In this document: positions 236-54,460 of the stretch, one piece after another
Position numbering within the stretch: position 1 is the first letter of the stretch
How the letters are laid out: the number at the start of each line of letters is the position of its first letter
Assembly: GCA_964017065.1 (NCBI GenBank)
Contig: OZ024785.1
Location: 1,259,142 to 1,323,141 of the forward strand
From: Haliclona indistincta
Lineage: Eukaryota > Porifera > Demospongiae > Haplosclerida > Chalinidae
Reading direction: 5' to 3'
Length of the DNA: 64,000 bases
Made by a program: the position numbers and the translations under genes
The notes under the pieces: model-generated
Database searches by the model: none
What the model saw: only the letters and a program-made list of their open reading frames with translations
What the model was told of the DNA's origin: nothing

Positions 236-3200
236 CTAGTCAATTTCTGACAGTGCTGTTTCAATAGCTTGTTTAGTACGCTCTCCTCCCTGACCATTCA
301 GCCATGCAGCCAGCATCTCTCGCATGCACTGTTTGACTTTGCTGTAATCAGCTTCAATTTCTTTTAAAGCATAATAATTCACTTCGAGCTGTAGCCCAAG
401 ATCAAACCAGTCACTGCTTTTACACTTCAGTGCTGTCAACAAATCTTTAAGATGTGAGATATCTGCATGTAGTAATATACAGAGTCACATTGACACACTC
501 ACTACAGCATACAGTACTCACCTAGTGTACCATCATCAGGTATGTTAGATAGATCAACAGTTGATACTGGTGATGCGGGAGGTACAGAGGGTGAAGCACT
601 AAGATCTGTAGGAACTGAAATGAGCATGGAAATTCGATATTAAGTCACAAAGTGAAATACAAAGCTAACCTTTTAGAACTGATTGTGAATGCTTGATGAC
701 AGTATCTGAGTCTAGTCCTGCTACTACCTATAGATATGATCATGCATGAGTCTTACCAACATGAGTGTTAACTCACCAGAGGATTTGTGCCTGCAAATAT
801 ACTAGTATTGTCCAAATGCTTTCTTAAACTTAAGTAGCTCTGGGGCTCCAATTGAGGCATCTGACACCGTTCTTCCACTACATAAATGTGGCGGGATACC
901 AGAATTAATGAATTCATGGCTTTAGCAAGTAGCTTTATTTTCTTGTCATGGGTAATAAAAATATTACCTGAACTAACATGAGCTTTCAATTCAACAGCTG
1001 CATGTGATGGTACAGTATAGGTAGCTGCTGCTAATGGTAATGCATGGATTATGATATCTATGATATCAATGCTACTAAATCACTTGATCACCTGTGACTG
1101 GACAGTATTTCTCTTCTATTTTATTAGCTACACTGTTCTCGTTCATATCCTTCAAAGCTATGATAAGCTCTTTCCAAGATGCATCAGGATAACATTTCTG
1201 CCACAAGTGGAGCATCTCAGCCTTCATTCTATCAACACCATCAGTACGGTGAGTGGATTCAATCTTGTGTAACTGGCTCATAGTCAGATCCAGATGTAAG
1301 CCAAGTAGATGCCACTCAGTAACATCCCTTACTGCTCTAACATAATCATTAACTGAGGGAGTAGAGGCTAAAGAAAACTTAACAACAATCTGTTCACATA
1401 ATAATCATACCCTTTGACTGTGACTCATCAGGTACTGTGAGATTTATATCACCTGAAATTAACCTGTACAAAACATTTGCTTGTCATGATATTCACAAGA
1501 TAACGTATTATAGCATAATCATGGAATCGATGACAAACTAATTTATTAACAAGCTTATTTATCTCACTTGTCAGCTAGTGTCTTCAGCTTGATTGCTCTG
1601 AGGGACTGAGCCAGTTCAACAGTATCTCCACCACTGTTATAAAACTGCTCAATGAGGTCATCTGGTACAACACCTGTATCTGGCATCATCTCCAGCTCTT
1701 TAGCAAGAGCTGTTATATTAGTGAGATGCATGGCTCTAGTGAGAGAAACTGCAATTTGAAGCTGATTTTCATCCTAGAGAAGTACAATAATAACAGTGTT
1801 ACTGTCGTATTATAGCTATACCTTAGAGACTTGTTTACTATCCTTGTCAACAGGGCAGAGCCAATATCGTTGACTATGAGTAGGCTTGAAGCTGTGATCA
1901 TTATGCTTACACTGAAGATAATCGCTCACAGTTTGCTCTTGACTAAATTCACAATATATATCTTGATGGTGTCTGAAAGAAGCCATCTGAGCTGGATCAA
2001 TGCACTGAGTGCAACAGAAAGCAAGCTGAGGATTTGCTTTTGGCAACCATTCAGAGATTGAAGTAAAGGACCTTTGCAACATCATGAAGACATTTCTGCA
2101 TGACATTCGAAAAGGTTCTTCTGATTCTTCTTTGCGAAAAAATTGAATTTCCACAGTGTCCGAGTACTCAGTGATAATCAACTTGTCCACCCTCCCATTA
2201 ACACGCATGGTGATTTTATTACACCAGATTCCAACACGAAAGAGAACTATGACACCTTTTTCACTAGATAGACAGGTTGCTAGTCGTACAAAGAAGCCAG
2301 GAGGAACGTAGCCAGAACTAAATACAATCTGAAGAGGAGATGCTCTTTTGACAAATGATTGTGGTGAATTAGCTGCGGACTGCACATCTACTGTACCAAG
2401 ACCATTATTGTGCTTCAACATCAGAGGAACAAAGTACTGCTTGCTGTTAGTTTCAGAAAAGTCAACCTGAATGTTAGCAGCCAGTTGGAACTTCTGTAAT
2501 AAATTCAAAATTGCATCAGGAGTGACATTAGTGCCCTTTAAGAGCGGTCTAAGCACTTCATTGTAGAGTGGCTCAGTAAGAATACCATAGTCACTAAACC
2601 ATGCACACATCTTCTTGTGCCTATCTTGATATTTCCACTTGCAAAAGAGTGTTCCAAACACATCAATCAGCCACTGGGGCTCTGGGATCACCACAGACTC
2701 AAGGCCATGCACATTAGGGTAGAACAACAGCACACCAAGCTCATGATAGAAATTGAGAGCACTGGGAACCTCCTTGATAGAAATAGAACATTTCCTAGCA
2801 CATATGTAAACTTCATCTAATTGCACGACTGGCTTTCCAACATAGAGCTGCAACACATTGCGGAATTCAACCCAACTGACTGGAGTATCTTCAGAAAGAT
2901 TGTCTCGAACAAATTTATGGATAGTCTCTCGAAGCTGGCCGATTCCTTTATCTTCTCTCTCTCCCGTTCCTGCAGTAGTATTGTCAACTATTATTCCTTC
3001 CAGTTCATCCATTAGAATGTTGGAGTAATCCTTTTCCATGACAACTGACAAAATCTTCTCTAGGCACTTCCTTTTAGATTGATCTGGTCTAAGCTGGTCA
3101 GCATGAGTGCCAACTAAGATTATCCTAGGATAAGAAGGTAGTTGTGCTTCACCACCTTCACCAAACCGAGCATGAATTGAAGCCATCCACATCTGAAGAA

Positions 3201-3888
3201 GGCTCAAAGCAGAGATATCCAATGTCTCTTTCATGTGACTATGTCCATCAATATTGACAACAACTTTACAAGGATCATCAAGCTCAAGAGAAGCATCAAA
3301 AACAAGTAGAAATACTGTTCTGGAGCTAAGAAAAGCAGGAAGAACACTGAGAAACACAGGTTGACCACCACAATCCCAGATGTGCAGCAACACCTTATTT
3401 TTGGAAGCATGAGACATAGATTCTACCATTTTTTCAACAACATTTTCTCTGTACTGTGCCAATGATTGATCACTTTTGTCAACACTTTCCTGACATGACA
3501 TGGACTGAACTCTATAAAACGTACAACAGAACAATGAACCAACTTATACCGCTAGTAAGAAATGCATGCTAATAGCTGAACAGTCAAATTACCTTCCTAA
3601 GTGGTGCACATTTGAGCTCTTTGCAGCTTGAGCAACTTCTTGAGTCTTATCTTCATTGGAAAGTTCTGTCCAGTGACTATATCGACCCTTCTCTGTTTTT
3701 ACCCAGTAGTACTTGACAGATCGAGTGCTAGCCAGAATAGTTGAGTTAGCTCTGTCAGGTAGCTGCTGATTCATCAAGCCATGTATCAGACTAGTCTTTC
3801 CTGCTGCTCCCAAACCGATCAACATGATACGACCATAAGACACCTCCACACTTCCTCTCTTCAGTGCTTGGGAATACACCTCAGACAC
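236..3888 (-). CDS. Roc-COR GTPase with two C-terminal death domains (ROCO-type)
   Basis: This is a multi-exon gene read on the minus strand. The exon 3593-3888 carries a P-loop (GLGAAGKTSL). It joins in frame to the large exon 1822-3511, which has the G3-like WDCGGQP and G4-like GTHAD motifs and then a COR-type region (FYHELGVLLFYP, PEPQWLIDVF). Further exons are 1568-1773, about 1409-1464, 1092-1367, 777-997, about 671-729, about 521-617 and 236-448. Exon 1092-1367 encodes a clear death domain (WHLLGLHLDL ... IEST ... LWQKCYPDASWKELIIAL). The last exon encodes a second one (DWFDLGLQLEV ... IEADY ... MLAAWLNG) and ends in TAG at 236-238. ROCO proteins are GTP-binding signalling proteins, and death domains recruit other death-domain adaptors. 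The 5' end is not fixed: base 3888 is a GTG just inside an exon, and the true start lies upstream across the microexon array. Confidence 0.85.
3593..3888 (-). other. P-loop (G1) exon of the Roc domain and its alternative 3' splice sites
   Basis: Two acceptors can open this exon on the minus strand. TTTTTTGAG leaves two bases before codon TCT. CTGAG, eight bases further on, opens in phase 0 at GTG TAT. The phase-0 choice joins directly to the upstream 15-nt exon. The other choice fits if a 4-nt exon (GAAA, followed by GTAAGA) at about 3940 is included, which gives GAA ATG TCT GAG. Both routes stay in frame, so the sequence alone does not decide. The donor at 3592-3591 (AAG/GTAATT) restores codon AGA with the first base of the next exon. 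Confidence 0.55.
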
Positions 3889-3999
3889 TCAAAAAATTGC
3901 AAAATGAGCAATCTTATACCTACATACAATTCTTACTTTCCTAATGAAATAAAATAATAGTTTTTTAGATACTTGATCCTTGAGCACAGCACAACATTA

Positions 4000-4135
4000 A
4001 ACTCACCTGTCTGATGTCATGCTAAGACAAAAGAAAATGAATTAATTCACAAGCAGTTTTACAATTCACTATAGATGACACAACTCACCTCTTTAGGCTA
4101 TTATAATAGTAGAAGATAAACAAGGAAAGAAGAAA
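4000..4135 (-). other. Two candidate microexons of 15 and 9 nt
   Basis: On the minus strand, TTTTCTTTTGTCTTAG is followed by a 15-nt stretch (CATGACATCAGACAG) and then GTGAGT, near 4011-4027. Further upstream, a pyrimidine-rich tract ending in ATAATAG is followed by the nine bases CCTAAAGAG and GTGAGT, near 4090-4100. Both lengths are multiples of three and both read through in phase 0 (HDIRQ; PKE) into the P-loop exon. They lie between the 3-nt array and the Roc exon and share flanking words with the array, so they look like diverged members of the same repeat series. Confidence 0.5.
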
Positions 4136-4189
4136 AATTTATTCCAAGCAGATGTTGATAGAATTTAATACATGCACACAATTACAGAC

Positions 4190-5299
4190 TATTTCAGTTG
4201 AACTTACCCACTGATGTTGATGTTGATGATGTTGATGATAGAGAAGGAGAAAGGAAAATTGTAATAATAACTTCAAACATGCACACAATAATTCAGTTTT
4301 ACTCACTTCCTGATGCTGATAATAGAGTATATAGACAGAGAAAGAGAATAGAAATAATCAAAAACCGTAACATGCACACAATAATTCTGCTTTACTCACC
4401 CACTGATGTTGGTGATAGAGTAGACAGAGAAGGAGAAAATAAATAATCAAACAGCGTACACAATAATTCAGTTTTACTCACATCCTGAGGTAGATGTTAG
4501 AGTAGACAGAGAAGGAGAAAAGAAATAATCAAACACCGTAACATGTACATAATAATTCAGTTTTACTCACCCACTGATGTTCATGATAGAGTAAACAGAG
4601 AAGGAGAAAAGAAATAATCAAAATTAATACGAAAATTGACGCAATAATTCATATTACTCACATCCTGATGTTGATGATAGAATAAACAGAGAAGGAGAAA
4701 AGAAATAATCGAACACCGTAACATGTACAAAATAATTCAGTTTTACTCACCATCTGATGTTGTTAATAGAGTGGACAGAGAAGGAGAAAAGAGATAACCA
4801 AAATTAATACGAAAATGGACGCAATAATTCGTATTACTCACATCCTGATGTTGATGATAGTAGACAGAGAAGGAGAAAAGAAATAATCAAACACAGTAAC
4901 ATGCACACAATAATTCAGTTTTACTCACCGGCTGATGTTGATGATAGAATAGACAGAGAAGGAGAAAAGAAATAATCAAACACAGTAACATGCACGCAAT
5001 AATTCAGTTTTACTCACCGGCTGATTTTGTTGATAGAGTAGACAGAGAAGGAGAAAAGAAATAATCAAACACCGTAACATGCACACACAGCATTACTCAC
5101 CGACTGATGTTGATAGAGTAGACAGAGAAGGAGAAAAGAAATAATCAAACACAGTAACATGCACGCAATAATTCAGTTTTACTCACCGGCTGATTTTGTT
5201 GATAGAGTAGACAGAGAAGGAGAAAAGAAATAATCAAACACAGTAACATGCACACAATAATTCAGTATTAATCACCGACTGATGTCGTTGATATAGTAG
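4190..5299 (-). repeat. Tandem array of about 85-90 bp units, each a putative 3-nt microexon (proximal block, 13 units)
   Basis: On the minus strand each unit has a pyrimidine tract (TTTCTTTTCTCCTTCTCTG), TCTACTCTATCATCAACAT, then CAG, three bases, then GTGAGT (once GTAAGT, once GTGATT), then an A/T-rich spacer containing TGTGCATGTTAC. The triplets from low to high coordinate are TGG, GAA, TGG, GAT, TGG, GAT, ATG, GAT, CCG, CCG, TCG, CCG, TCG. The acceptor and donor stay constant while the triplet varies, the spacing is always three, and none is a stop in phase 0. No other AG is available as an acceptor in a typical unit. It could be transcribed as 3-nt exons, act as recursive splice points, or be an untranslated minisatellite. 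The repeat itself is certain; its splicing role is inference. Confidence 0.75.
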
Positions 5300-5777
5300 A
5301 GGCCCTGACTAAGATTTGTATGCATTTAATTTAGGAGAGGATAACTCCACTGTTTTAGGGTAATTTGACCCCAAGGAATAAGATGTGATATGTGCCTTTT
5401 TGTCTATCCGCTGCGAAATATCCGAAATTGAACACGCCCATTTTATCGGCATTGTCACTAACAACAATTGGTCTATCTTCTTAACCATTCTACTTTCTGG
5501 CAACTGTTCTAAGGTAATATGACCCTAAGGAATGTATTTGGATGTGTGCCAAAACCAATATTCACTGCAAAAAGCAAAAATGGCTACACCTTTCTCTGAA
5601 ATGCATTAACGTCTCTATTCTAAAGAATTTGATTCTGATGGTTTGAAACAGTACAAGTACAGGGTATTAACAACAAAAAGGCACAATTTATCAACTTGAG
5701 GAGTCACTTAAACCTAAAACTTAGGCTGTATTTAGTATTACAAGAATGATGTTCACAAAAATGAAGTTTTCAGTGAT

Positions 5778-6380
5778 AGAGTTTTTGTAAGATTCACCTC
5801 CTTTACACTTGCAACACTTGATTCCAGCTACCCTGCAGCAACATCCATTCTTGTGGCCGCATTTGCCACATGTACAAGTATCAGGAAGGTCTTCAGGCTT
5901 GGAGATAACAATAATTATCATGAATTTTTTCTTCACAAAAGTGAAACCATACGACTCAGCGTTCATTTCTAAACTGGCATCTTTAATGGGGCTTGTATAC
6001 ATATACCTGTTGTTGATAATATATGCCCATTGAATATGCGTTCATGCATTAGCTGATGTGCAGAGAATTGTCTCAAAGTGGAATTGCTATTAAAAGCAGC
6101 AAGACACAGGTCATCAAATGTTTCCAAGTCTGTTCACAGCGTTTTGATATCTAGTGCACGAGTTGTGCGTTGTTGACTTGAGACACCTTACTAGAAAATT
6201 TTCTGCCATCTGTATCATACTCTCTGTCAACTCCAAGTTGGTAAAGTTCTGTATCAGTGTTAAATTGTTGTATATAGCTTTCATTGCTGCATGCATCGTA
6301 GAAATCTTGTTAGTTGTATCACATCCAGTCAGAGCCGGCATGGATCGAGTGCAGGAAGATAACCTGATTAGAATATCCAT
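5778..6380 (-). pseudogene. Mobile-element protein fragment (LTGCDTT / Cys-rich), left arm
   Basis: The minus strand encodes SMPALTGCDTTNKIS, a motif I recognise from uncharacterised mobile-element proteins common in invertebrate genomes. A broken stretch follows, then a Cys-rich C-terminus (CTCGKCGHKNGCCCR, then GIKCCKCKGG). The reading frame is not continuous across the arm. It mirrors the right-arm copy. No transposase catalytic core was recognised. Confidence 0.5.
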
Positions 6381-6559
6381 TATGGTACATCATCCTATCA
6401 TCAGCTTCCTCATGTGTCACATGATATCTGCACAGCACTGGGGGACAAGCTTGCAAGGTGTCTCCCTGCACTCCATGGTCTGACTGGATGTGATTCAACT
6501 AGCAATATTTCTACGAAGCATATAGCAATGAAAGCTATCCACAACAATAACATTGCCTA

Positions 6560-7040
6560 TGTTACAGAACTTTAACAACTCGGAGTTGACAGAGAGTATG
6601 ATACAGATGGCAGAAAATTTTCTAGTAAGGTGTCTCAAGCCAAAAATAGACTTGGAAACATTACTATGATGACTTGCTCTTGCTGCTTTTAATAGCAATT
6701 CCCTCAAAACGGACTTTGAGACAATTCTCTGCACGTCAGCTAATGCATGAATGCATATTCAATGGGCATATAAAATTATTATCAACAACAGCTATGTATA
6801 CGCAAGCCCCATTAAAGATGCCAGTTTAGAATTGAATGCTGAGTCGTATGGTTTCACTTTAATTTGTGAAGAAAAAAATTCAATTGTTCCTGATAATTAT
6901 TGTTATCTCCAAGCCTGAAGACCTTCCTGATACTTGTACATGTGGCAAATGCGGCCACAAGAATGGATGTTGCTGCAGGGTAGCTGGAATCAAGTGTTGC
7001 AAGTGTAAAGGAGGTGAATCTTACAAAATCTCTATCACTG
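6560..7040 (+). pseudogene. Mobile-element protein fragment, right arm
   Basis: This is the plus-strand counterpart of the left-arm fragment. It reads ELTESMIQMAENFLVRCLK and then, after a break, the same Cys-rich end near 6935-7030. The two arms therefore encode the same C-terminal piece pointing outward, as expected of a fold-back copy. It has frame breaks and is not functional on its own. Confidence 0.45.
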
Positions 7041-7558
7041 AATAACTTCAGTTTTGTGAACATCATTCTTAAATACAGCCTAAGTTTTATGTTTAAGTGA
7101 CTCCTCAAGTTGATAAATTGTGTCTTTTTGTTGGTAATACCCTGTACTTGTACTGTTTCAAACCATCAGAATCAAATTCTTTAGAATAGAGACGTTAATG
7201 CATTTCAGAGAAAGGAGTAGCCATTTTTGCTTTTTTTTGCATTTTTGCTTTTTTGGCACAAATCCCAATACATTCCTTAGGGTCCTACTACCTTAGAACA
7301 GTTGCCAGAAAGTATGTTACTAGTATGGTTAAGAAGATAGACCAATTATTGTTAGTGACATCGCCGATAAAATGGGCGTGGTCAATTTTGGGTATTTCGC
7401 AGCGGATAGACAAAAAGGCACATATCACATCTTATTCCTTGGGGTCAAATTACCCTAAAACAGTGGAGTTATCCTCTCCTAAATTAAATGCATACAAATC
7501 TTAGTCAGGGCCTAGACTAATAGAGTAGACAGAGAAGGAGAAAATAAATTATCAAACA

Positions 7559-8245
7559 TGGTCGTATACAATCGCGGGACTGGAACAGTGGAATGGAATG
7601 ACCTTTCAAAAATTTAGCATAAAATGTTCCAAAATTTTTATGTTATTGGGTAATCTTGTATCTCCACATGTAAAAATCAGCTGCTACAGCACTTCTTGCT
7701 ACAGTGACGATCGTGTGCACTGACGTTCTTCAGGCTACTCAGATGATTGATTAGCACTGCTACAGAACTTCTGAATACACAACTGATGATCAAGCAAGCG
7801 AGCATAATGCTGACGATGCAATATCGTCAGCAACATGCAATGCTGACGATTTAGCTCAGAACTGGTAGATAGAAGGTAACGCTAGTAGTCAATAGCAAGT
7901 TCAGCGAAAAGAAGGTGCCCGGCAGAACATCGTTAGAAGAGCCATAGTCTACTGTCAGTCTCACAGTTACCAGAATGTACTTATATATACAGCCTGAAGA
8001 ACGATCAGTGTGAACAATCGTCACAGTAGCAAGAAGTGCTGTAGCAGTGCTAATCAATCATCTGAGTAGCCTGAAGCACATACAGCGCACTCGATCGTCA
8101 CAGCAGCAAGAAGTGCTGTAGCAGCTGATTTTTACATGTGGAGATACACGATTGCGCAATCACATAAAAATTTGGAACATTTTATGCTAAACCTTTGTAA
8201 GATCATTCCATTCCACTGTTCCAGTCCTGCGATTGTATACGACCA
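7559..8245. mobile_element. Fold-back element with 7-bp target-site duplication
   Basis: The ends are perfect inverted repeats (TGGTCGTATACAATCGC ... GCGATTGTATACGACCA with one substitution), continuing for about 140 bp inward through the CAGCTGCTACAGCACTTCTTGCT block. The direct repeat TCAAACA flanks it at 7552-7558 and 8246-8252. This 7-mer is part of the array unit, so insertion into an existing unit is shown directly. The centre holds several smaller repeats around CGATCGTC and CTGTAGCAGTGC. There is no coding capacity. Confidence 0.88.
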
Positions 8246-8940
8246 TCAAACACAGTAACCTGCACACAATAATTCAGTTTTACTCACCGGCTGATGTTGA
8301 TGATAGAGTAGACAGAGAAGGAGAAAAGAAAAATAATAATTAAACACGGTAACATACACACAATAATTCAGTTTTGCTCACTATCTGATGTTCATAGAGT
8401 AGAAAGAGAAGGAGAAAAGAAATAATCAAACACCGTAACATGTACATAATCAGTCAGTTTTACTCACCCCCTGATTTTGATGATAGAATAGACAGAGAAG
8501 GAGAAAAGGAATAGTCAAACACAGTAACATGCACCTCAGTTTTACTCACCCACTGATGATAATGATAGAGTAGACAGAGAAGGAGAAAAGAACTAATCAA
8601 ACAGCGTAACATGTACACAATAATTCAGTTTTACTCACCCACTGATGATAATGATAGAGTAGACAGAGAAGGAGAATAGAAATAATCACAGAGTAACATT
8701 TACACAATAATTCAGTTTTACTCACCATCTGATGTTGATGATAGAGTAGACAGAGAAGGAGAAAAGAAATAATCAAACGCCATAACATGCACAAAATAAT
8801 TCAGTTTTACTCACCCTCTGATGTTGTTGATAGAGTAGACAGAGATGGAGAAAAGAAATAATAACATGCACACAATAATTTTCAGTACTACTCACCGTCT
8901 AATGTTGATGATAGAATAGACAGAGAAGAGAAAAAATTCA
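8246..8940 (-). repeat. Putative 3-nt microexon array (distal block, 8 units)
   Basis: The array continues beyond the two nested insertions with the same unit. Minus-strand triplets from low to high coordinate are CCG, ATA, GGG, TGG, TGG, ATG, AGG, ACG. Seven units have the CAG acceptor. The last (near 8895) has TAG, and its donor is still GTGAG. The array fades at about 8940, where pyrimidine-rich sequence gives way to AT-rich DNA and a TTCGCGAA-rich repeat. Confidence 0.75.
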
Positions 8941-8984
8941 AAGCAGCGTACATATAAGTACAATCAGTATTTAGACTAAATACA

Positions 8985-9559: not shown

Positions 9560-12230
9560 TTGAACCTTGTTTATATTTCTATTTTATTTTCTGGCCTTTT
9601 TGTGTATCTTTTTGTTTTGTTGTTATATTTATTAGGCTGGCCTTTATAATAGCTTTTGCTACATGTAGTTGGTCTTTAGCCTGTATGCTCTTGTTCTAGC
9701 ATCAAACATTTAGAGAAAGAACATTACGTTTAGTAGCTCGTTCATGACATTTGCATGGTCAAAACAGGTGTACAGCGCGTCTACTGCAGCCAATACTACA
9801 GCTAGCCTCGTACCCAGGCCTGCTTTGGCGGACGGCCTGGTAGTCTGGTACACACTGTTCGCGCATGCGTTTAATTATCCAACATCCGGTTAAAACAAGA
9901 TACTTACTGTACATTTCTCCGTGTTACTTGGCTAGCCACGCGATGAACAGAGCGCATAGTTGGTGTATAGCGAACTTTCGCGCAGCTGACGCTTGCTTTT
10001 AAGGTAAGTTTAGCTGCGGATTTAAGTCTAGTATACGCGATGTTGTGAGCTAGAAATAGCAAGCATCGTGCTAAAGTCTGTGGCTTCAAATACAACGAGG
10101 TACGAGGCTACAAATACTGCGTGATTTCTAGGCGAACGTTCGTAGCTTATGAATATTCATAATTAATTGATTCTGCCGTACGTTTCTACAATCTGATTGG
10201 ATCGCAGAAATCCTTGCGACTGGTACAACTACCATTGACGCCAGACCCTTCCATTGTAATGCAAAGGGCTGTGGCTGCCAGACTAGACATGTGATCTACA
10301 ATATTCTATATCGTGGCAGCACTACTGTAAACAGATCATGCAAGTTACCTTTGTACCATCTATAGTTAATGTGTTGGAGGCACACATCATAGCTATCATA
10401 TGTGGTATGGACTAGGCAGTGTGAAGTTATTCAAACTTAAACCACGTCAACGCGTATCTGACAAATCATCATGCATGCTATAATAGTGTCCGGAATTAGG
10501 AACCGTCCGAAACTATATGTAGGCAGGGCCCCTCCCTTTTTATGTACTTACCAAACTTGGCTTTGCCTTGGTCGCCATCATAGTACTCGAACTACTCACC
10601 TTTCTTTCAGCCCCCTGCCACAGTGACACTGTAGCGTAGCAGGGGGCACTGCGCAAGCGGCAGTGCAACTAAGTGCGGGAGTTTGGGGGTGTATATTAGT
10701 CGAATCACGCACGTCCAGCGCGGCAACAGATCTCAGTCAACCCGCAGTAAGCTTACTTTAATTACCCTGGGCGCGTAGGCGCCGGAGGGTTAAGCGTTTT
10801 GTTTCGTCTATACAGTGCTTCCAGTCTAAACATTCAAATTTACCACATTTCACCTACATGTAATGTTTTTGCTCATAAAAACTAAACTATAGATGTCACG
10901 GTTATATGATTTGGTGAGAGAGTTGATACATCCATCTAGAGTATGTATGTATAGTTAGGAAGACATGGGTTATTTCATCTCGAAGATATCAGCAGTTCAG
11001 TGGCTGTTGTTGGAAACACCAATTATCATTTATTTTTAGGCCATAAAAACTGCTATATTGTTAGTTAAGAAAAAAGACTTGGCAAACAGTTGAGTAACTA
11101 GTTCATCTATCATATAATGTAAAATGGGCGCTTGATGCTCATGGAAACTACAGTACAGTCCTAAACAAGGCCAAAATTACTCAAATTCTACAGGTGAGAA
11201 AGTTTTTAGACTCAAAAACGCGCAACTTCGGGAGTTAAGAAAAGATCGCTTGCAAGCAGGTAGCCACATGCCTTTACTATCCTCAGCGTTTCATTCGTGA
11301 CAGTAGCTTACACTGTACTCGAATACGGTGACCTGATAGCGGCAGCACTCGCCGCTTCTGGTCGTCTTTGCTATATCTTATGACGTAGACAATGACGTTC
11401 GTCATATCATAGAGTAGCCTCGCGGAGGCGAGGCTAATCATAGAGACAATGTACGGATATATACGGGTATCGATAAACGAGCGGAAACGGGTCATCGATA
11501 AACTACTTTCTCTAGATGAATCTCATTAACGCGACGAAGAACTGCAGAACAGCACTTTCTCGACGATCGCGTGCGCGCATGGTTTACTGAAGCTAAACTT
11601 ATAATTCCAACGCAAGTAAAAAGTTCAGGTATCTGGCTATCCATTGCACAAATCTGTGTTCTTAACTCACAAAAATGCGCAAATGCAAGCCTAAAAACTT
11701 CGGTGACTCCCAAAACACACGTTTTTGGTGCATTTCTGCACCGTACAACGTTATGCAAGGAATTTGAGCTTGAAAACTTGCTGTAGTGAAAGATGAGCCA
11801 TTCTGTGAGGTGTTTGTAAAGTGAATTTTCTTAACTCAGCCAAATGATCATTTCCAAGTCTAAAAACTTCAGCTACTGAGCTTAACCAGTGACTTATAAT
11901 TAATAGTTTATAACTTTTGCAATAGTTGGTTGTGAGCTGTCATATTTGATGCACATAATCTACAGTGTTATGCAATACTTCAGACCAGATTTGAGGATTG
12001 TATTAGCTTTGATATATTTTTTACAGCATAATATGTAAAAATATCAAAAGTGGACTCTCTAAGCGGGAAGCACTGTATCTTGCATGTGCATGGTCTTTAT
12101 AACAATGAGTTTTTGTACTTTTTCACGCAGTTGTCAAGCAAGTGAGTGCGGAATTTTTAAGTGATGAGTTCAAGCTAAAAGTTCTCAAAGACTCTTGCAG
12201 TACATTTAAATAGCTAGAATGTTTTCAGAA
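9560..12230. other. Non-coding interval with small inverted repeats
   Basis: No gene was recognised. Visible structure: an inverted-repeat element at about 9803-10111 (GCTAGCCTCGTACC ... GGTACGAGGCTAC); a GCCCCCTGCCACAGTG / GCAGGGGGC hairpin at about 10611-10647; a short perfect palindrome TAGCCTCGC/GCGAGGCTA at about 11414-11433; and GC-richer stretches near 10680-10800. The open frames at 11283-11786 are on both strands and show no family motif. Confidence 0.5.
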
Positions 12231-12254: not shown

Positions 12255-12574
12255 TTACAGTTGGTGTTGTTATTAGTGTCTTGATAGTATCAGTGATCAG
12301 TACAGCTATTATCACTAGTATCATTGTGTGGTGTGTTATGAGGAGAAGGAGACCATCATCACATGCTACAGCAACTACTGACCATGATAAAGAACAAGTC
12401 ACTGAGCTAGCTACAGTGATCTATGACACACCTAATGTCATCAAGGAACACACCATCACTACTCAAGATAATGTAGCTTATGGAGGGACAATACCACTCA
12501 AAGAGAATGTAGCTTATGGAGGGACAATACCACTCCAACACAATGAGGCTTATCAACAAGTGTATATCAACTGA
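12255..12574 (+). pseudogene. Orphan transmembrane/tail exon of the receptor family
   Basis: An acceptor (CCCACTATACAG) opens an exon with a membrane segment (VISVLIVSVISTAIITSIIVW), then CVMRRRRPSSHATATTDHDK, VIYDTPN, two NVAYGGTIPL repeats and NEAYQQVYIN, then TGA. This is the complete last exon of the family, and the 3' flank also matches other copies. No signal, Ig or FN3 exons precede it within the roughly 3 kb upstream. It is probably the surviving end of a deleted copy, although a distant 5' exon cannot be excluded. Confidence 0.75.
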
Positions 12575-13082: not shown

Positions 13083-13614
13083 ATTAATGTCCTACTCAGC
13101 TGGTGTGTAGGTGGGTGTGTCCTACTCAGCTGGTGTGTAGGTGGGTGTGTCCTACTCAGCTGGTGTGTAGGTGGGTGTGTCCTACTCAGCTGGTGTGTAG
13201 GTGTAGGTGGGTGTGTCCTACTCAGCTGGTGTGTAGGTGGGTGTGTCCTACTCAGCTGGTGTGTAGGTGGGTTTGTCCTACTCAGCTGGTGTGTAGGTGT
13301 AGGTGGGTGTGTCCTACTCAGCTGGTGTGTAGGTGGGTGTGTCCTACTCAGCTGGTGTGTAGGTGGGTGTGTCCTACTCAGCTGGTGTGTAGGTGGGTTT
13401 GTCCTACTCAGCTGGTGTGTAGGTGGGTGTGTCCTACTCAGCTGGTGTGTAGGTGTAGGTGGGTGTGTCCTACTCAGCTGGTGTGTAGGTGTAGGTGGGT
13501 TTGTCCTACTCAGCTGGTGTGTAGGTGGGTGTGTCCTACTCAGCTGGTGTGTAGGTGGGTGTGTCCTACTCACCTGGTGTGTAGGTGGGTGTGTCCTACT
13601 CACCTGGTGTTTCT
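13083..13614. repeat. 30-bp minisatellite (36-bp variants)
   Basis: There are about 17 copies of a unit GTGTGTAGGTGGGTGTGTCC + TACTCAGCTG, some with an extra GTGTAG. Because the unit is a multiple of three, both strands stay open and give spurious Cys/Trp-rich or His/Pro-rich proteins. Related arrays lie at 36.6 and 52.6 kb, each followed by TTTCTCCTCTT(C/G)AG-TGACTAGT. Confidence 0.95.
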
Positions 13615-16520: not shown

Positions 16521-18375
16521 ATGGAACACTTCATTGTACTACTGATCTGTCTACTGGTTATAGGTAACTTGTCATTATAATGCTAACTCGATGCTAAAAT
16601 AATATTCAAAAAGATACAGCTACTACTGCTGAGCCTCAGTTCAGTGATACTGTCACAATCCAGCCTATACAGCCAGCTAATGGATCAGCCTGTCCTGGAC
16701 AAGATGTCACTCTAAACTGTACTATTATAGAACACTACTCACAATGATGGCAATGGTTGATCTACCATCAATGACTTGGGCCTACCAGGGTACATATGCC
16801 ATCCGCAGTGATGGATCTACCTCAAGCAACTCACCCAATGACATCTTTGCTGCTACATTTATAAATAATGGAGATTATACAATTTTGTCAATCGCCACAA
16901 TATTCAATGTTACACTTGCTTATCATAACGATGTGATGCGATGCGAGTCACCACCAAATGATTTCAAAGCTGTCAGCATTTCAATAGCAGGTACATAATA
17001 ATTATAGCTAAGATACAGGGTAATAATAATAATTATTATTCAAAGGTGCAGCAATGTCTCCTTCAAATCTGAGTATCACTGCCAGCAAGCCACCAGTATC
17101 ACTAACATGGCTAGCTCCTCCTAATGGACCCACAGACTGTGTCTTCAACTACACTATCAATATCACTAACTACAGTAGCTCTAGCTCGTACTACAGTACT
17201 AGCAACACTGAGTCACTGATACTGACTGATGACCTGATCACTCGTGGACACAACTACTCATTTGCTGTGGCTGTTACTGACAGTACAGGACAACATGGAC
17301 CATGGAGGGATCAACTCACAGTCACATATGATGGTATGAGCATATTGTATCACCTAATGCATTATAACACTCATGATGTGGTCTGTCGCTGTAGTTCCTG
17401 ATAGAGTGAGCTTCGTAGTACTGTCACTACATCAATCAAACTTTTTGGTGACATGGCAGGTACAATTAACTACACAAGTAGTTAACATCACATTTTTCTT
17501 ATTCCAGCCTCCTCCACTGATAGCTGGTTTCCCAGTCCTTCACTATGTAGTGTCTTATAATACCAGTGATAACAGCACACTGATACACACACAAGTGAAC
17601 TCTTCTATGACTAGCTACACAGTGTCTGGTGTACCAGGAGTAACCTACTATATTACAGTGATTGCTGTCAATGCTGTGGGACCAGGACCTATCAGTGATT
17701 ACTCTATAGTGAATGGTGAAATGAACAAGTATCATAAATCACTCGTATTATCATAGGCTTGTTGTTATAGTGCCACTAACAACTGCAACACAAGTCTCAA
17801 CTAGTACTCAGCTAGTTCAAGCATACTACACTTCTAGTGAGTTTATTTTATCCATGTTTTCATAAGACTGCATAGCTTTAGACCAAGTACACATAACATC
17901 ATCTGAGACACAAGCAAGCTGTTTACAATCATCAATTCCTATGGACAGAAGCAGCTCTACAGTTATAGGTAAACAACAATATTGATGACACAACAATAAT
18001 GATTATACTTGGTGTGTCATCATGAGTTGTGTTTCTCCTTTCAATACAGTAACCACAGTATCCACTGTTCTTGTTAGTGTATTGATAATATCAGTCATCA
18101 GTACAGCTATTATCACTAGTATCATTGTGTGGTGTGTTATGAGGAGAAGGAGACCATCATCACATGCTACAGCAACTACTGACCATGATAAAGAACAAGT
18201 CACTGAGCTAGCTCCAGTGATCTATGACACACCTAATGTCATCAAGGAACACACCATCACTACTCAAGAGAATGTAGCTTATGGAGGGACAATACCACTC
18301 AAAGAGAATGTAGCTTACGGAGGGACAATACCACTCCAACACAATGAGGCTTATCAACAAGTGTATATCAATTGA
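16521..18375 (+). pseudogene. Ig-FN3-FN3 receptor, frameshifted in the Ig exon
   Basis: Exons: signal peptide 16521-16563 (MEHFIVLLICLLVI), Ig 16620-16990, FN3 17046-17333, second FN3 17395-17459 plus 17508-17715, Thr/Ser-rich stalk 17771-17836 and 17876-17968, membrane/tail 18050-18375. All junctions are phase-compatible except that the Ig exon has lost one base near 16729 (ATTATAGAAC, where the 40-kb paralogue has ATTATAAGAAC). TGA then follows at 16745-16747. Apart from this lesion every splice site looks usable and the tail (two NVAYGG repeats, NEAYQQVYIN) is intact. It could be a recent pseudogene, a sequencing error, or a gene with a restored allele. Confidence 0.8.
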
Positions 18376-28710: not shown

Positions 28711-30518
28711 ATGCTTCTCTTTCTTCTTGTTCTGAGCAATTATTGGTTCTGTAATGCTGGTAAGTAAACAAGCAATTACACATGTGATATACATGTGATT
28801 TGTTCTAGTTACTCAACAGAGTACAGTTGACATGGTCACACTCATCCCTGTTCAGCCAGCTAGTGGAGTATCAGCCTGTCCTGGACAAGATGTCACTATC
28901 AACTGTACAGTTGTTAGAATGCCTGCTTCATCTACAGTCATACAACCATCATTGAATTGGTTGTATATCGGTGGAATTAATATCAGATATACAGATGGTT
29001 ACCTAACGGGCGAACCAGATAATGGAATTTTCACTGCTGCATTTTATGCTGGAGACTATACAGTGACATCAACTGCCACAATATTTAGTGTTCCACTATC
29101 TCATCATAACAATGTGATGGAATGTCAGTCACCTATAGCCAGCAATTCAGTTACCATATCATTGTCAGGTTTCTAATTATTATCAATATTTTGATTTTGC
29201 ATTAATTTTAATAAATTATAGGTGCAGCAAAGTCTCCTTCAAATCTGAGTATCACTGCCAGCAAGCCACCAGTATCACTAACGTGGCTAGCTCCTCCTAA
29301 TGGACCCACAGACTGTGTCTTCAACTACACTATCAATATCACTAACTACAGTAGCTCTAGCTCGTACTACAGTACTAGCAACACTGAGTCACTGATACTG
29401 ACTGATGACCTGATCACTCGTGGACACAACTACTCATTTGCTGTGGCTGTTACTGACAGTACAGGACAACATGGACCATGGAGTGATCAACTCACAGTCA
29501 CATATGATGGTATGTACAATGTATGTATGTCCATTATTGTGTTGCTTGCAGTTTATAGTGCCGTAAAGTTTAATGCAACACTGACTCCATCAGGCATACT
29601 TGTTAAATGGCAGGTTAGTTATTTTCAAGGTTGACAATTAATAATTTCCCGACTGTACTTTCTATTTATGTCCTACATGACAGCCTCCTCCACTGATAGC
29701 TGGTCTCCCAGTCCTTCACTATGTAGTGTCTTATAATACCAGTGATAACAGCACACTGATACACACACAAGTACTGAACTCTTCTATGACTAGCTACACA
29801 GTGTCTGGTGTACCAGGAGTAACCTACTATATTGCAGTGTTTGCTGTCAATTCTGTGGTACAAGGAGATATTAATGATTACATCATAGTGAACGGTAAGC
29901 AAAGCTTCTGGCATTCTGGTTTATTATAATTATGATTTTTTACTATCCAGTGCCTCCACCTTCTGTAACAGCAATATCAACCAGTGGCCAACTACAAATG
30001 CAGTCTAATATTTTAACTACCTTGGCCACTGCTCAAGTTAATATTTCAACTTCAGGTTAGTATGGGTTCAATAGTCATTGTTTGCTAATGTTTGTAGCTA
30101 AAGATGATTATGTTTTTCCACTACAGTTACAGTTGGCGTTCTTGTTGTTGTATTGATAGTATCAGTGATCAGTACAGCTATTATCAGTAGCATCATTGTG
30201 TGGTGTGTTATGAGGAGAAGGAGACCATCATCACATGCTACAGCAACTACTGACCATGATAAAGAACAAGTCACTGAGCTAGCTACAGTGATCTATGACA
30301 CACCTAATGTAATCATAGAACACACTATCACTACTCAAGAGAATGCAGCTTATGGAGGGACAATACCACTCACACAAGTCACTGAGCTAGCTACAGTTAT
30401 CTATGACACACCTAATGTCATCAAGGAACACACCATCACTACTCAAGAGAATGTAGCTTATGGAGGGACAATACCACTCCAACACAATGAGGCTTATCAA
30501 CAAGTGAATATCAACTGA
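28711..30518 (+). CDS. Intact Ig-FN3-FN3 single-pass receptor with repeated-tyrosine tail
   Basis: Seven exons: signal 28711-28759 (MLLFLLVLSNYWFCNAG), Ig 28809-29168 (CPGQDVTINC ... VMECQS), FN3 29222-29509, second FN3 29552-29613 plus 29684-29894, stalk 29951-30055, membrane/tail 30127-30518. The lengths sum to 1467 bases, giving 488 aa with no lesion. Almost all exon borders are phase 1, the pattern that allows domain shuffling. The membrane segment is VLVVVLIVSVISTAIISSIIVW, followed by CVMRRRRP. The tail carries the block from VTELATVIYDTPN to YGGTIPL twice, then NEAYQQVNIN. YDTP fits the pYDxP class bound by Crk-type SH2 domains, and N-x-x-Y occurs before each GG. It is likely a surface receptor signalling through phosphotyrosine; the ligand is unknown. 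Confidence 0.9.
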
Positions 30519-35978: not shown

Positions 35979-36576
35979 TGCATCCCAGCAGTAATGAACT
36001 GTCATGCATATTGTATTATTCTTGTACTGTTGAACTATTCTTGTATACTGCCCCTGCCTTCTATCTCTATCTTCATAATGTTTTTCTTCAACTAACCGTG
36101 AAGATTGGATGATGATTACATGGTCTCTGTAGTCAGTGAATTATGGAACTAGACAGTCTGTTTGATGGGCATCTGAGTCCTGCACTGGTGGGTGTACTTT
36201 GTGTTCAATAATTTTCTGATCACAGTGCTGATAACTGAGTGCTGATAATGATATTGGTACTAATGATCGATCACTGTGAAGATATGAAGATATTCACTAC
36301 ATGCCCTCTCATTGAAGTGATGTATCCATGATGGAGAAATTAGGCAAAATACGGCTGTAAAAACGCGTTTTTATAGTTTCGCGCCAAATTCTTATTAGAG
36401 CTCACTTGAAGGTGGTGCCTCATGTGTACGCTAGCCCGAGCGCTTGCCTACTGGCTATGGCATTACTAGTCATTGATGTGCTGTAGGTTGCTGTACGTGT
36501 TATCATCTAGATCATACATTTGGAGATCTTTACACAGAAGTGAGTTGCTGTTGGTTGAGATAGCTGTTGATACATG

Positions 36577-36925
36577 TGTGTAGGTGGGTGTGTCCTACTC
36601 AGCTGGTGTGTAGGTGGGTGTGTCCTACTCAGCTGGTGTGTAGGTGGGTGTGTCCTATACTCAGCTGGTGTGTAGGTGGGTGTGTCCTACTCAGCTGGTG
36701 TGTAGGTGGGTGTGTCCTACTCAGCTGGTGTGTAGGTGGGTGTGTACTATACTCAGCTGGTGTGTAGGTGGGTGTGTCCTACTCAGCTGGTGTGTAGGTG
36801 GGTGTGTCCTACTCAGCTGGTGTGTAGGTGGGTGTGTACTATACTCAGCTGGTGTTTGGTAGGTGGGTGTGTCCTATACTCAGCTGGTGTGTAGGTGGGT
36901 GTGTCCTACTCAGCTGGCGTTTCTC
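36577..36925. repeat. 30-bp minisatellite, second array
   Basis: About eleven copies of the same unit as at 13.1 kb, with TATACTCAG variants that shift the frame between units. It is followed by TTTCTCCTCTTGAG instead of ...TTCAG, so the acceptor used in the sister copies is altered here. Confidence 0.93.
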
Positions 36926-43020: not shown

Positions 43021-45202
43021 ATGTCTATGATGATACTAGGATTGAGTTTCTTGTTCAAATTAGCCCAAGCCACTTTAGGTAACTGTCAATGGTACAGGTT
43101 AATAATTACAGAGTTGTATGTTGATGCAGTGGTACTCACACAAACAACTCCTCTCAGTGGTGTTGGTGTGTGTCCAGGACAAGAACTCATATTTTCATGT
43201 AATTCATCAATATCAAATGACGTTATTTGGACTCTGCAAACAATTGAAGATGGTAATTTTAGCGGGTCTGCAGTTGGATTTAACGACTCCATTATATGGA
43301 ATTTCAGAATAAAGATTGTTGGACGCGTTACAATATTTCCATTTAGTATAGTGTCTACAGCCACTTTGAAGAATGTGCTTTTTTCTCATAACAATACCAA
43401 AATTAAGTGTACTTCTCTTGACACCAACTCCATATCAATTTCCAGTGAGTCGAGATCAGTGTTAACATTAGGTGAGTTGAATTGCTCTTTGGTTATCACA
43501 CTAAATGCATGCATATGCCGGTATAGTTGTCAGTAAAATTAATCATAATTTATATTTATTGGAAAAAGGTCTCACTTCTCATCCATCTGATTTGATTGTT
43601 ACTGCTCAAAATGGGTCATCAGCCATGCTGTCATGGTCACCACCAGCCGTTGACAACAACTGTTCATTCTGTTATGTTGTCAATAGTCATATCAATGGCA
43701 GTTTAGTAGTTCAGCAGCACAGAACCAACATAACTACATCACTGGTTGTTACTGGGTTGACTATTGCTACAATATATCAGTTTGCTGTGGCTGTTGAAGA
43801 TACTGACTTGACAACAGGTCCATGGAGTGAGATGGTGAATATATTATGGGATGGTAAGTGACTTTGTAATGAAGTAATCTAATATTCATGATTCATACAG
43901 TCCCACTAAAAGTTAATAATGTGTCTTTTGTGATGAAGATGAATACTATTGAAGTAAACTGGGCGGTCAGTTTTTAACTAATATTATATTGTTAATATGA
44001 TTATTGAGTACCTGTATAGTTACAGCTGGGGATCGATACACCACGTCCTCCTATTATCCATTATATAATAACACATAATATCACGGCAGTATCAGGAGAT
44101 ACAATGATGCATACTGTCATTAGTCCTATGGCAGTCATATCTCTCAATGGAGTGCCATCAGGAAACTATTATGTTGAAGTTGCTGCTGAGAATATTGTTG
44201 GATTAGGAGAAAGTATTTTGATGTTAACTACTGGTATGTACATGTATATGTTGTGCATAACCATGGATTGTAGAATGTAGATGAGTTAAAGTAAAAAATA
44301 AAGATGATTTCAAAAGGATTTAGATTAGGAATGAGGATATCGGCCACTGACTAAGCAAGGACTAGAATTTTTTTATTCCTCAGTAACAGAACTATCAGCA
44401 GCAACAACAATAAAAAAGTACTCATCCAGTACTTTCTTGACATCATCGGTGCAACAAATTATACCTTCTTCATTGCAGTATGTTGAGACCACTACAGGTG
44501 AAATTCATTTTTATAGCCGCTTATACAGGCAGTTTTTATCATGCACTATGCATTCAATTTTTCCTAAAACCTGGTGAGGATCTTGTGTACCATTTTGACA
44601 AACCACCTGTCACAATAGCATCAGTAACTTTTGCTGCAAACGACCCACTAGGCTCTTGAGACTCCACAGGCACATCAAGGATCTTCACCAGGTTTTAGCA
44701 CTATAGCATTTGTAGATACCTTTTGCAAATAAAAACAGTTAAAATCTGGTTAAAATTGTATTGTCTGTTTTTCAGTTAATATAGACCAACCAAGTAGTGA
44801 AAACACTTTCAATGGTGAGATAAAGAATTTACCCAGGCAACAGTGAAATAATGCTTTTGTACTTTTATTACAGCTATTACTACAGTATCTGTGGTTCTTG
44901 TAAGTGTATTGATAGTATCAGTGATCTGTACAGCTATTATCACTAGTATCATTGTGTGGTGTGTTATGAGGGGAAGGAGACCATCATCACATGCTACAGC
45001 AACTACTGACCATGATAAAGAACAAGTCACTGAGCTAGCTACAGTGATCTATGACACACCTAATGTCATCAAGGAACACACCATCACTACTCAAGAGAAT
45101 GTAGCTTATGGAGGGACAATATCACTCAAAGAGAATGTAGCTTATGGAGGGACAATATCACTCAAAGAGAATGTAGCTTATGGAGGGACAATACCACTCT
45201 AA
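43021..45202 (+). CDS. Ig-FN3-FN3 receptor, type B ectodomain, tail truncated by a stop
   Basis: Exons: 43021-43078 (MSMMILGLSFLFKLAQATLG), 43112-43471 Ig (CPGQELIFSC ... NTKIKC), 43569-43853 FN3, 43901-43965 plus 44026-44233 second FN3, 44384-44497 and 44776-44814 stalk, 44874-45202 membrane/tail. The sum is 1458 bases (485 aa), in frame. The first intron would be only 33 bases and is itself open, so it may be retained. The tail has three NVAYGG repeats, but CAA has become TAA at 45200, removing the NEAYQQVNIN end that is still readable downstream. VMRGRRP replaces VMRRRRP. The ectodomain is closest to the 50-kb gene. Confidence 0.82.
44569..44700. mobile_element. Small inverted-repeat element in a receptor intron
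   Basis: AAAACCTGGTGAGGATCTT at the left is mirrored by AAGGATCTTCACCAGGTTTT at the right. It lies in the intron between the stalk exons of the 43-kb receptor and does not affect splice sites. Confidence 0.8.
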
Positions 45203-45936
45203 CACAATGAGGCTTATCAACAAGTGAATATCAACTGATGTGTGAATGTACTGAGTGCTTGACTTGACTATACATTTATAAAACTTGTTACAGTAGTGTT
45301 TATTATGCAAACTAGTAGATAGTGTGGTTTCTTTCAATGGACTATTATACTAGTGTAAAACTCTAATATCAAGTACTAGTGACAACTGTGAAGATATGAA
45401 GTTATTCACTACTTGTCCTCTCACTGAAGTGATGTATAAATGAAGACACTACTGTACAAACGCGTTTTTCTTGCTGCAGTCTCTTCTCAGTTAACACTTA
45501 AAATAATAGCAGGAAGTTCAAAAGAAGCGACTGATTTATGGAGATCTTGGAACTGCTCCAGGAAGACGACCAATGGCTGCACCATTGTCATCACATGATC
45601 AAGTTGTGTACTCCAAAGTTAAATCAAATAATTATGAATTTGTTTGATTTTGAATAGTTTTACCATAAATTGACACTGCTGATAGCTATTAGCGCTAGCA
45701 TGCATACAATTTATGATTATGATGTTGCAGTGACAAGCATCATTTCATGAGGATGTATGTACTATAATTTTTTATCCGTGTGTCTATAAATTAAAAGAAA
45801 CTAAATAGATCTAGGAGCCCATAGAAACAAGTTTTGGGTTTGTTTCTATGGGCTCCGGATAGATCTTAAATGTATTCATGAGATTATGCCTGCCAATGGG
45901 TGTGTCATGTATTCATAGAGAACTAGAGAACGTATC

Positions 45937-47805
45937 ATGTGGCTCAAAACGAATGGTTCTGTGCTAATATATCTATCCCTGACAACAAGTAAGCTATCAT
46001 ACATGTATTCAGAGCTCTGACTGTGTGTCTTCATCAGATCTAGTGACAGCTCAAGATACTGTCACAGTTCAGCAAACTGAGCCAGCTAGTGGAGTATTAG
46101 CTTGTCCTGGACAAGATGTCACTATCAACTGCACTATTGTTAGAGAGACTAACATACCAGGAGTTGAACAACCAACAATGAATTGGCTATACAGAAATAT
46201 TAGGTTCACATACAGAGATGGAGTTTTACAACCAAATTCTGATCCACTCAACAACGGTGTCTATACTGCTGAATTTAGCTATTCACACTTTTATGTGAAC
46301 TCAATTGCCACAATTTTAAATGTTCCATTGTCTCATCATAATAGCAGTATTCAATGTTTTGTATCAGGTAGTAATTCTAACCAAGTCAAGACAATAAAAA
46401 TAGCAGGTCAGTTTAAAAGTAAATGTGTGATTTCAATAATGTAGTATGATTTAATGCTACTCAAAGGTGCAGCAATGTCTCCTTCAAATCTGAGTATCAC
46501 TGCCAGCAAGCCACCAGTATCACTAACATGGCTAGCTCCTCCTAATGGACCCACAGACTGTGTCTTCAACTACACTATCAATATCACTAACTACAGTAGC
46601 TCTAGCTCGTACTACAGTACTAGCAACACTGAGTCACTGATACTGACTGATGACCTGATCACTCGTGGACACAACTACTCATTTGCTGTGGCTGTTACTG
46701 ACAGTACAGGACAACATGGACCGTGGAGTGATCAACTCACAGTCACATATGATGGTATGTATTCAGTTTACACGATTATTTTCCTGATCATGCATTCACT
46801 TTTAATTGGTGTGTTAATGCAGTTCCTGGTAGTGTGAGCTTTATGATACAGTCACATCAATCAAGCTTAATTTTGACATGGCAGGTATGATTATACATGT
46901 AATTGAAATTTTTAATATTTCCTTCCAGCCTCCTCATCCACTGATAGCTGGTTTCCCAGTCCTTCACTATGTAGTGTCTTATAATACCAGTGATAACAGC
47001 ACACTGATACACGCACAAGTGAACTCTTCTATGACTAGCTACACAGTGTCTGGTGTACCAGGAGTAACCTACTATATTACAGTGTTTGCTGTCAATGCTG
47101 TGGGACCAGGACCTATCAGTGATTACTCTATAGTGAATGGTGAAATAAACAAGTATCATAGATCACTCGTATTATCATAGGCTTGTTGTTATAGTGCCAC
47201 TAACAACTGCAACACAAGTCTCAACTAGTTCTCAGCTAGTTCAAGCATACTACACTTCTAGTGAGTTTATTTTATCCATGTTTTCATAAGACTGCATAGC
47301 TGTAGACCAAGTACACATAACATCATCTGGGACACAAGTAAGCTGTTTACAATCATCAATTCCTATGGACAGAAGCAGCTCTACAGTTATAGGTAAACAA
47401 CAATATTGATGACACAACAAAATGATACTTGGTGTGTCATCATTAGTTATGTTTCTCTCTTCCGCTACAGTAACCACAGTATCTGTGGTTCTTGTTAGTA
47501 TATTGATAGTGTCAGTGATCAGTACAGCTATTATCACTAGTATCATTGTGTGGTGTGTTATGAAGAGAAGGAGACCATCATCACATGCTACAGCAACTAC
47601 TGACCATGATAAAGAACAAGTCACTGAGCTAGCTACAGTGATCTATGACACACCTAATGTCATCAAGGAACACACCATCACTACTCAAGAGAATGTAGCT
47701 TATGGAGGGACAATACCACTCAAAGAGAATGTAGCTTATGGAGGGGCAATACCACTCCAACATGAACAGATTTCACAAAACCCTCGGCCGTGTTGCACAT
47801 TGTAA
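45937..47805 (+). CDS. Ig-FN3-FN3 receptor with interrupted C-terminus
   Basis: Exons: 45937-45988 (MWLKTNGSVLIYLSLTT), 46038-46406 Ig (CPGQDVTINC ... SIQCF), 46467-46754 FN3, 46823-46884 plus 46929-47139 second FN3, 47195-47260 and 47300-47392 stalk, 47471-47805 membrane/tail. The sum is 1476 bases (491 aa), in frame. The tail has VMKRRRP, YDTPN and two NVAYGG repeats. After LQH the frame then runs into foreign sequence (QISQNPRPCCTL, stop). The lost end (AYQQVNIN, TGA) reappears at about 48299-48332, so an insertion separates it. It is likely still expressible with an altered end. Confidence 0.8.
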
Positions 47806-54450: not shown

Positions 54451-54460
54451 GAGTTACTGG

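Follow-up and report, generated by a model that had tools for sequence, protein, structure and literature searches.

The window analysed here, a stretch of 64,000 nucleotides (nt) from the sponge Haliclona indistincta (contig OZ024785.1, positions 1,259,142 to 1,323,141 of the forward strand), carries on its minus strand a predicted gene for a Roc-COR protein with Death domains and, inside this gene, a tandem array of 21 units of about 89 base pairs (bp), running from 8898 to 4208. Each unit consists of a pyrimidine tract, an AG, three nucleotides and a GT. The genomic evidence presented below makes it probable that these triplets are exons of a single codon.

A row of AG-NNN-GT units in a Roc-COR gene

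In the order of the minus strand, the predicted gene and its array comprise the following features.

10552..10578, minus strand: first coding exon, ATG GCG ACC AAG GCA AAG CCA AGT TTG (MATKAKPSL), with donor GTAAGT in phase 0; the frame is open into the array
8288..8898, minus strand: array block 1, eight candidate one-codon units, 5' to 3' ACG AGG ATG TGG TGG GGG ATA CCG; introns of 78-91 nt
5294..8246, no strand assigned: two adjacent foldback (long inverted repeat) elements, inserted into the pyrimidine tract of unit 9
4208..5278, minus strand: array block 2, 13 candidate one-codon units, 5' to 3' TCG CCG TCG CCG CCG GAT ATG GAT TGG GAT TGG GAA TGG; introns of 79-96 nt
4089..4097, minus strand: 9-nt exon CCTAAAGAG (Pro-Lys-Glu); splice sites present in 9/9 aligned family members
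4007..4021, minus strand: 15-nt exon CATGACATCAGACAG (HDIRQ); found in 9/9 aligned members, in one with a GTTAGT donor
3937..3940, minus strand: 4-nt exon GAAA, giving Glu-Met with the TG of the next exon; found in 9/9 aligned members
3593..3887, minus strand: Roc P-loop exon (GLGAAGKTS); Pfam Roc 2.4e-05, score 25, under the curated cut-off of 27
1822..3511, minus strand: exon with the remainder of Roc and COR-A; Pfam COR-A 1.8e-11, Roc 8.7e-07
1568..1773, minus strand: following coding exon; frame open across the junction
1075..1404, minus strand: open frame with a Death domain; Pfam Death 2.1e-08
236..484, minus strand: open frame with a second Death domain; Pfam Death 1.1e-06

The sequence-only reading from which this work started had described 21 units, each with a pyrimidine tract, an AG, three bases and a donor, and all of them were found: the acceptor is CAG in 20 units and TAG in the first, and the donor is GTGAG in 19, GTAAG in the last and GTGAT in the ninth. 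The units are tandem repeats with a mutual likeness of about 81-82%. What that reading had taken for one continuous array is, in fact, two blocks of 8 and 13 units, held apart by a foldback insertion of about 3 kilobases (kb) that cuts the pyrimidine tract of unit 9. The inverted arms of the foldback pair span 5294-7519 and 7558-8246 and are 88-99% complementary; owing to this pair the intron between units 8 and 9 measures 3,009 nt, the remaining introns of the row 78-96 nt. The spacing was also said to be constant: a count of the strict motif [CT]AG-N(k)-GT[AG]AG over 4150-8950, minus strand, gives 20 occurrences at k=3, one each at k=7, 9 and 11, and none at the remaining values of k within 0-12. 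As this includes k=0, the array holds no strict zero-length ratchet point, in which the acceptor abuts the donor (AG/GT).

As proposed, the array lies upstream of the Roc P-loop exon, though it does not adjoin it directly, the 9-, 15- and 4-nt exons standing between the two. The gene qualifies as a ROCO gene, a Roc GTPase followed by COR, both Pfam Roc and COR-A exceeding their cut-offs in a frame of 575 amino acids. Nine copies of the P-loop exon, the window's among them, are at least 91% identical, and an exon beginning ATGGCGACCAAG... with a phase-0 GTAAGT donor upstream of the array is common to all four family members aligned there, window included. A [CT]AG-N4-GTRAG site, comparable to the 4-nt exon, also occurs in 17 of the 21 remote loci, no more than 1.5 kb upstream. 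A 21-nt exon in place of GAAA was considered by eye and rejected, as it would break the frame into the P-loop exon. A conserved stretch at 10286-10408, in intron 1, includes about 18 bases that, judged by eye, seem complementary to a second conserved stretch, which lies close to the beginning of the array in some of the paralogs (L050, L052). The complementary stretches may serve to loop out the intron or may be the end of a mobile element; the window's copy seems to lack the second half.

Constant spacing and variable triplets

Fixed spacing alone proves little, because tandem duplication copies the spacing along with the unit. Moreover, the constancy of AG and GT in units picked by motif is partly given by construction, and an unbiased count requires anchoring on the pyrimidine tract only. 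With this anchor, AG, 3 nt and GT or GC are found in 366 of the 372 matches from the window's family; the other six comprise one block edge, one unit cut by the insertion in the window, two without an acceptor AG, one with a changed donor and one non-unit. The same anchor in the arrays of a second gene family, of ZU5 type (see below), gave AG-3 nt-GT/GC in 214 of 223 matches, some of the nine others being non-units.

The triplet itself behaves differently from what surrounds it. From the window's family 341 units selected by the AG-3-GT motif were kept, of which 337 in the main clusters have full flanks; four candidates (C10:6598665, C3:1716662, C3:1739942 and C6:10472128) were excluded, and the window's ninth unit also lies outside the 337. 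In these 337 units the three triplet positions, T1 to T3, carry 1.90, 1.93 and 1.06 bits, and the intron columns 0.2-1.0 bits. The first two positions, at about 1.9 bits, are nearly random, and the even spread of change across the unit that a neutral minisatellite would show is not found. In the ZU5 arrays T1 and T2 reach 1.90 and 1.92 bits, the surrounding columns 0.04-1.4. The units have the composition of a 3-nt microexon, AG-NNN-GT with intron signals on both sides, and exon-length scans support this length almost exclusively: 11 remote ROCO loci gave 399 sites at k=3, no other k within 0-20 having more than 9, and three ZU5 loci 71, 97 and 52 sites at k=3, no other k within 0-24 having more than one.

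Phase, stop codons and residue content

When the predicted exons are joined, the frame stays open for 769 codons through the ATG exon, the 21 triplets, the 9-, 15- and 4-nt exons, the 2.2 kb of Roc-COR and the following exon, and all 21 triplets fall in phase 0. This phase is fixed from both sides, because the joined upstream and downstream exons give an uninterrupted frame.

In this phase the triplets are free of stops. Among 964 triplets from 24 array groups none is a stop codon, and column shuffles expect 38.1 when pooled and 30.6 within arrays, with zero reached in 0/5000 shuffles of either kind; together with the open frame, this is what coding content that preserves the frame should look like. 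The count excluded sites of one ZU5 array, L064, beyond base 7200 (four units) and of another, L066, beyond base 5500, the latter cut dropping one TGA candidate past the array end, in a GTGAGTGAG stretch. Leaving TAG aside, TAA and TGA together are also absent (19.3 or 14.2 expected by shuffle), and if each triplet is counted once per array (n=287), 7.9 are expected and zero occurs in 1/5000 shuffles. The two other phases across the junctions contain 87 and 33 stops in 940 codons. The residue content is specific to the array: it measures 0.996 bits, and none of 500 shuffles exceeded 0.390, though unit duplication contributes to this figure. The predicted segments would be low-complexity sequence, with an acidic, basic and proline-rich composition in some cases, Glu/Met/Lys or Gln/Glu/Arg in others, and a hydrophobic one over parts of two arrays of the ZU5 type.

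Arrays in other genes of the genome

The window's unit has at least 427 matching places in its own genome. Arrays stand ahead of the Roc P-loop in 20 of 27 ROCO paralogs (L009-L035), the other seven (L019, L023, L026-L030) and three further loci (L036-L038) having been viewed in the first 1.5 kb upstream. In remote ROCO paralogs, with P-loop exons 48-58% identical, the arrays occupy the same place, their introns are strongly diverged and their median periods are 84-102 bp; here, too, units were picked by motif ahead of triplet counting. The longest row belongs to the L024 gene, in which MAAQQP precedes 111 consecutive units, with Glu, Met or Lys as the predicted residue in 109, and one further match lies beyond a gap. 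Phase-0 ATG exons ahead of the array were recognised by eye in two remote genes, namely MAAQQP with a GTGAGT donor in L024 and MATRETSPDSDE with a GTTAGT donor in L031. At C3:1.716-1.742 Mb and C10:6.562-6.566 Mb stand further window-family arrays for which the matches listed include no P-loop within several kb downstream; these are perhaps broken genes or pieces of larger ones.

A pattern search with a different gap located a second family, three ZU5-Death genes on C8, whose arrays repeat with a median period of 72 bp; their units were counted as 71, 100 and 55. A normal exon, by eye open in the same phase, comes after the array of L066, and ZU5-like and Death-like frames after that of L065, judged so by their likeness to those of L066. 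L064 was placed in this family by its location and like introns, no continuation past its array being found in the 6 kb read (L068).

Over the whole genome, two paired-unit patterns matched at 810 and 653 places, simple repeats included, against 39 and 32 for the reversed patterns. Single TCAG-N3-GTGAGT sites number 2136 against 770 for the reversed-pattern control (N4, 491 against 286; N2, 511 against 426), an excess at k=3 that includes GTGAGT simple repeats and a family on C1. The recurring TCAGCTGGTGAGT sites on C1 were discarded as an array, being judged ordinary exon ends in the one region read (L062). A TCAGTAGAGTGAGT site with 4-nt spacing recurs many times at C1:16.4-19.0 Mb. Among IMG/VR and GTDB contigs no relatives were found.

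The consensus introns, freed of splice signals, suggest a history of the arrays. Those of the ZU5 arrays and L031, and those of L024 and the window's family, resemble each other more than all 500 shuffles that keep composition, and the consensus introns of remote ROCO arrays show mutual likeness beyond composition; for other pairs, such as L031 or L020 with the window's family and ZU5 with L018 or L020, no such likeness was found. The likeness of the ZU5 and L031 introns speaks against the idea that the introns of the two gene families are unrelated. These data suggest a single origin of the arrays, which would have spread between gene families and kept the 3-nt exon as the introns changed in sequence and length. 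Chance or simple inheritance in tandem was rejected in view of the variation of triplet versus intron, the near-exclusive k=3 and the recurrence of the spacing with diverged introns.

Other features of the window

Elsewhere in the window, repeats of 36 bp (108 bp in one place) with frames reading ENVAYGGTIPLK lie at 12461-12553, 18262-18353, 30266-30479, 45089-45217, 47683-47757 and 51818-51946; they sit in a cluster of receptor-like genes and differ in copy number from place to place. A 30-bp minisatellite (GTGTGTAGGTGGGTGTGTCCTACTCAGCTG) is present at 13088-13610, 36576-36917 and 52621-52729, and a tandem repeat of 62 bp, in 18 copies with 97% matches, at 54454-55572. A 648-codon frame on the minus strand at 61203-63149 resembles macro domains joined to the start of a PARP-type catalytic domain and may encode these.

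Discussion

We consider it likely that the array is coding and consists of one-codon exons in rows, probably spliced stepwise over short introns, that form a low-complexity segment growing by unit duplication. The predicted product of the window's gene, MATKAKPSL-[TRMWWGIP SPSPPDMDWDWEW]-PKE-HDIRQ-E-MSEVYSQALKRG..., would carry this segment as a variable N-terminal part of a Roc-COR protein with Death domains. From the genome sequence we infer that the units are spliced, that they are spliced stepwise and with near-complete inclusion, and that the segment has a function, which in these signalling proteins with Death domains might be that of a variable linker, a helix or a membrane segment. The sequence-only reading had left the choice between a microexon and a ratchet. 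Stop avoidance, phase, the ATG exon and recurrence in other genes argue for the one-codon microexon, and a ratchet that leaves no triplet is disfavoured; but the two readings are not exclusive, since a codon would be gained every time in stepwise splicing offset by 3 nt, and they merge in a ratchet that leaves one codon at each step.

A splicing pathway may be suggested on this basis. Exon definition over 3 nt is implausible, as the factors bound to the acceptor and to the next donor would collide. The introns, about 70-100 nt long and each with a donor, pyrimidine tract and acceptor of its own, could be recognised singly, by intron definition. Once one intron had been removed, the upstream exon would end in a new codon with the next GTGAGT donor right behind it; that donor could then be used in turn, one codon being added with every step as in ratchet splicing with an offset of 3 nt. 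Stepwise removal would thereby resolve the collision of factors at the acceptor and the next donor. As every exon of the row is 3 nt long and in phase 0, duplication, loss or skipping of units keeps the frame: a skipped unit would leave it intact, errors would be tolerated and units would be able to multiply. The array would then act as a minisatellite whose copy number sets the length of the segment.

Several observations weigh against this interpretation. (i), the first exon spliced straight to the 9-nt exon is also in frame. (ii), the acceptor of the P-loop exon is a weak site, GAG in 8 of 9 aligned members and CAG in one. (iii), triplets are not independent of one another, through unit duplication. 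(iv), two units of the window's family (C3:1716662, C6:10472128) have lost the acceptor, and triplets ending in AG (GAG 58, AAG 18 of 337) abut the GT, where a zero-length site is possible. (v), CAG is nearly absent (2/964 triplets), and the absence of TAG may for this reason reflect competition between acceptors. (vi), queried with the predicted N-terminus, a collection of 5.8 billion proteins yielded 4 matches, and none of the three examined contains the array, though this collection seemed to comprise unspliced predictions for the family; nor was the spliced N-terminus found among public protein homologues. (vii), in HeLa cells the exon junction complex is described as repressing donors just after a junction (PMC6224609); a donor 3 nt past each junction occupies this very position, and repression would have to be overcome at every step.

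How far do other readings account for the same data? The units might be translated by choice, each transcript taking one unit or a variable subset, in a regulated or stochastic manner, to give an ensemble of segment lengths and sequences. The units are interchangeable in frame and their introns near-identical, which would make skipping cost-free, and in the window's family unit pairs with introns about 2% different carry unlike triplets in 77% of 351 pairs. However, several arrays repeat few residues (Glu/Met/Lys in L024, runs of Pro or Ile), which gives little diversity and fits serial reading, and L024 pairs with near-identical introns mostly share their triplet (unlike in 7% of 236); we regard such choice as unlikely. 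Constraint at the nucleotide level, in which competition between splice sites purges CAG, TAG and triplets containing GT and the coding content is immaterial, fits the dearth of CAG and the 22 of 64 triplets that are missing among 738, mostly C-ended or NGT. It does not predict that TAA and TGA should be absent as well, where 14-19 are expected, though GAA, CAA, AAA, AGA and CGA are common, and as a full account it seems quite improbable.

The remaining readings keep the triplets out of the protein. Recursive (ratchet) splice points with a 3-nt spacer would have the geometry seen here, stepwise removal is plausible, and units with GAG or AAG do have an AG directly before the GT. Yet the triplet of most units contains neither AG nor GT and hence offers no zero-length point, ratchets are not called for in rows that reach about 10 kb at most and whose introns measure about 70-100 nt, and triplets that stay outside the mRNA should neither avoid TAA and TGA nor fit phase 0, so that we hold this reading to be very improbable. 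A neutral intronic minisatellite, removed whole, with a splice-like motif copied along by duplication, would be in keeping with the tandem repetition of the units, with a direct splice across them in frame, and with the shared ancestry visible in the consensus introns of several arrays. Duplication explains neither a near-random triplet between conserved AG and GT, nor the absence of stops, nor an exact 3 nt where the introns have diverged and changed length, and we give this possibility hardly any weight.

Beyond the single gene, we lean, with some reserve, towards one-codon exons as a gene architecture, used by at least two Death-domain families (Roc-COR and ZU5) for segments of up to 111 residues assembled codon by codon; the unit may have a single origin and have passed between the families, and its slippage, introns included, would be an engine of variation in the length and sequence of these signalling proteins. 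If RNA confirms the arrays, they would constitute a variant of the microexon and a new gene architecture. If true, this is gene splitting taken to an extreme, the smallest useful exon being the ordinary exon of a gene segment and repeated dozens to more than 100 times. Such arrays would test the spliceosome with an acceptor and a donor 3 nt apart, and the order in which neighbouring introns are removed; they would make the accuracy of serial splicing readable, each error being a missing codon in frame; they would raise the question of why exon junction complexes fail to block donors beside fresh junctions; and they would offer protein repeats a route of evolution along which nearly all of the repeated DNA would be intron.

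The sequence-only reading knew of no tandem array with a fixed 3-nt spacing, and among the papers listed by our search of the open-access literature, most subscription papers lying outside its scope, none concerned a tandem array of 3-nt exons. Single examples are described: micro-Ex8 of Drosophila homothorax is a 3-nt microexon (PMC7392893), and human RPS24 has a 3-bp exon, with exons of 3, 18 and 22 bp in a row (PMC12686416). Like the units reported here these are exons of exactly one codon, in frame; unlike them, they are one 3-nt exon beside longer ones, whereas the arrays, on genomic grounds, would be rows of 8 to 111 exons, all of 3 nt. Very short exons are reported to be easily missed by gene prediction and read mapping (PMC8831610, PMC7821500), and similar arrays may thus hide in other genomes.

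The micro-exon genes of Schistosoma are described as having 10-20 exons per gene, mostly of 15 bp (the range is given as 6-81 bp in the text and as 3-81 bp in the abstract), and introns of 0.1-5 kb (PMC10526429). Common to both systems are serial tiny exons, mostly multiples of three, and variable products. The exons of the rows described here are instead all 3 nt long, with introns of about 70-100 nt that form a tandem repeat, and while serial exons of 6-81 bp and long introns make up the bulk of a Schistosoma-type gene, this one consists, outside the row, of large exons. Ratchet points serve long introns in Drosophila and usually leave no trace in the mRNA, RS-exons being retained on occasion (PMC8605326, PMC6224609). 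Compared with recursive splicing so described, the stepwise reuse of a growing upstream exon is the likely route here too, but each step would leave one codon and the introns are short. The arrays also recall the zinc-finger array of Prdm9, reportedly a coding minisatellite, in that tandem copy number sets the length of the protein and some positions are strongly variable; the Prdm9 repeat is coding, whereas about 97% of the unit here is intron.

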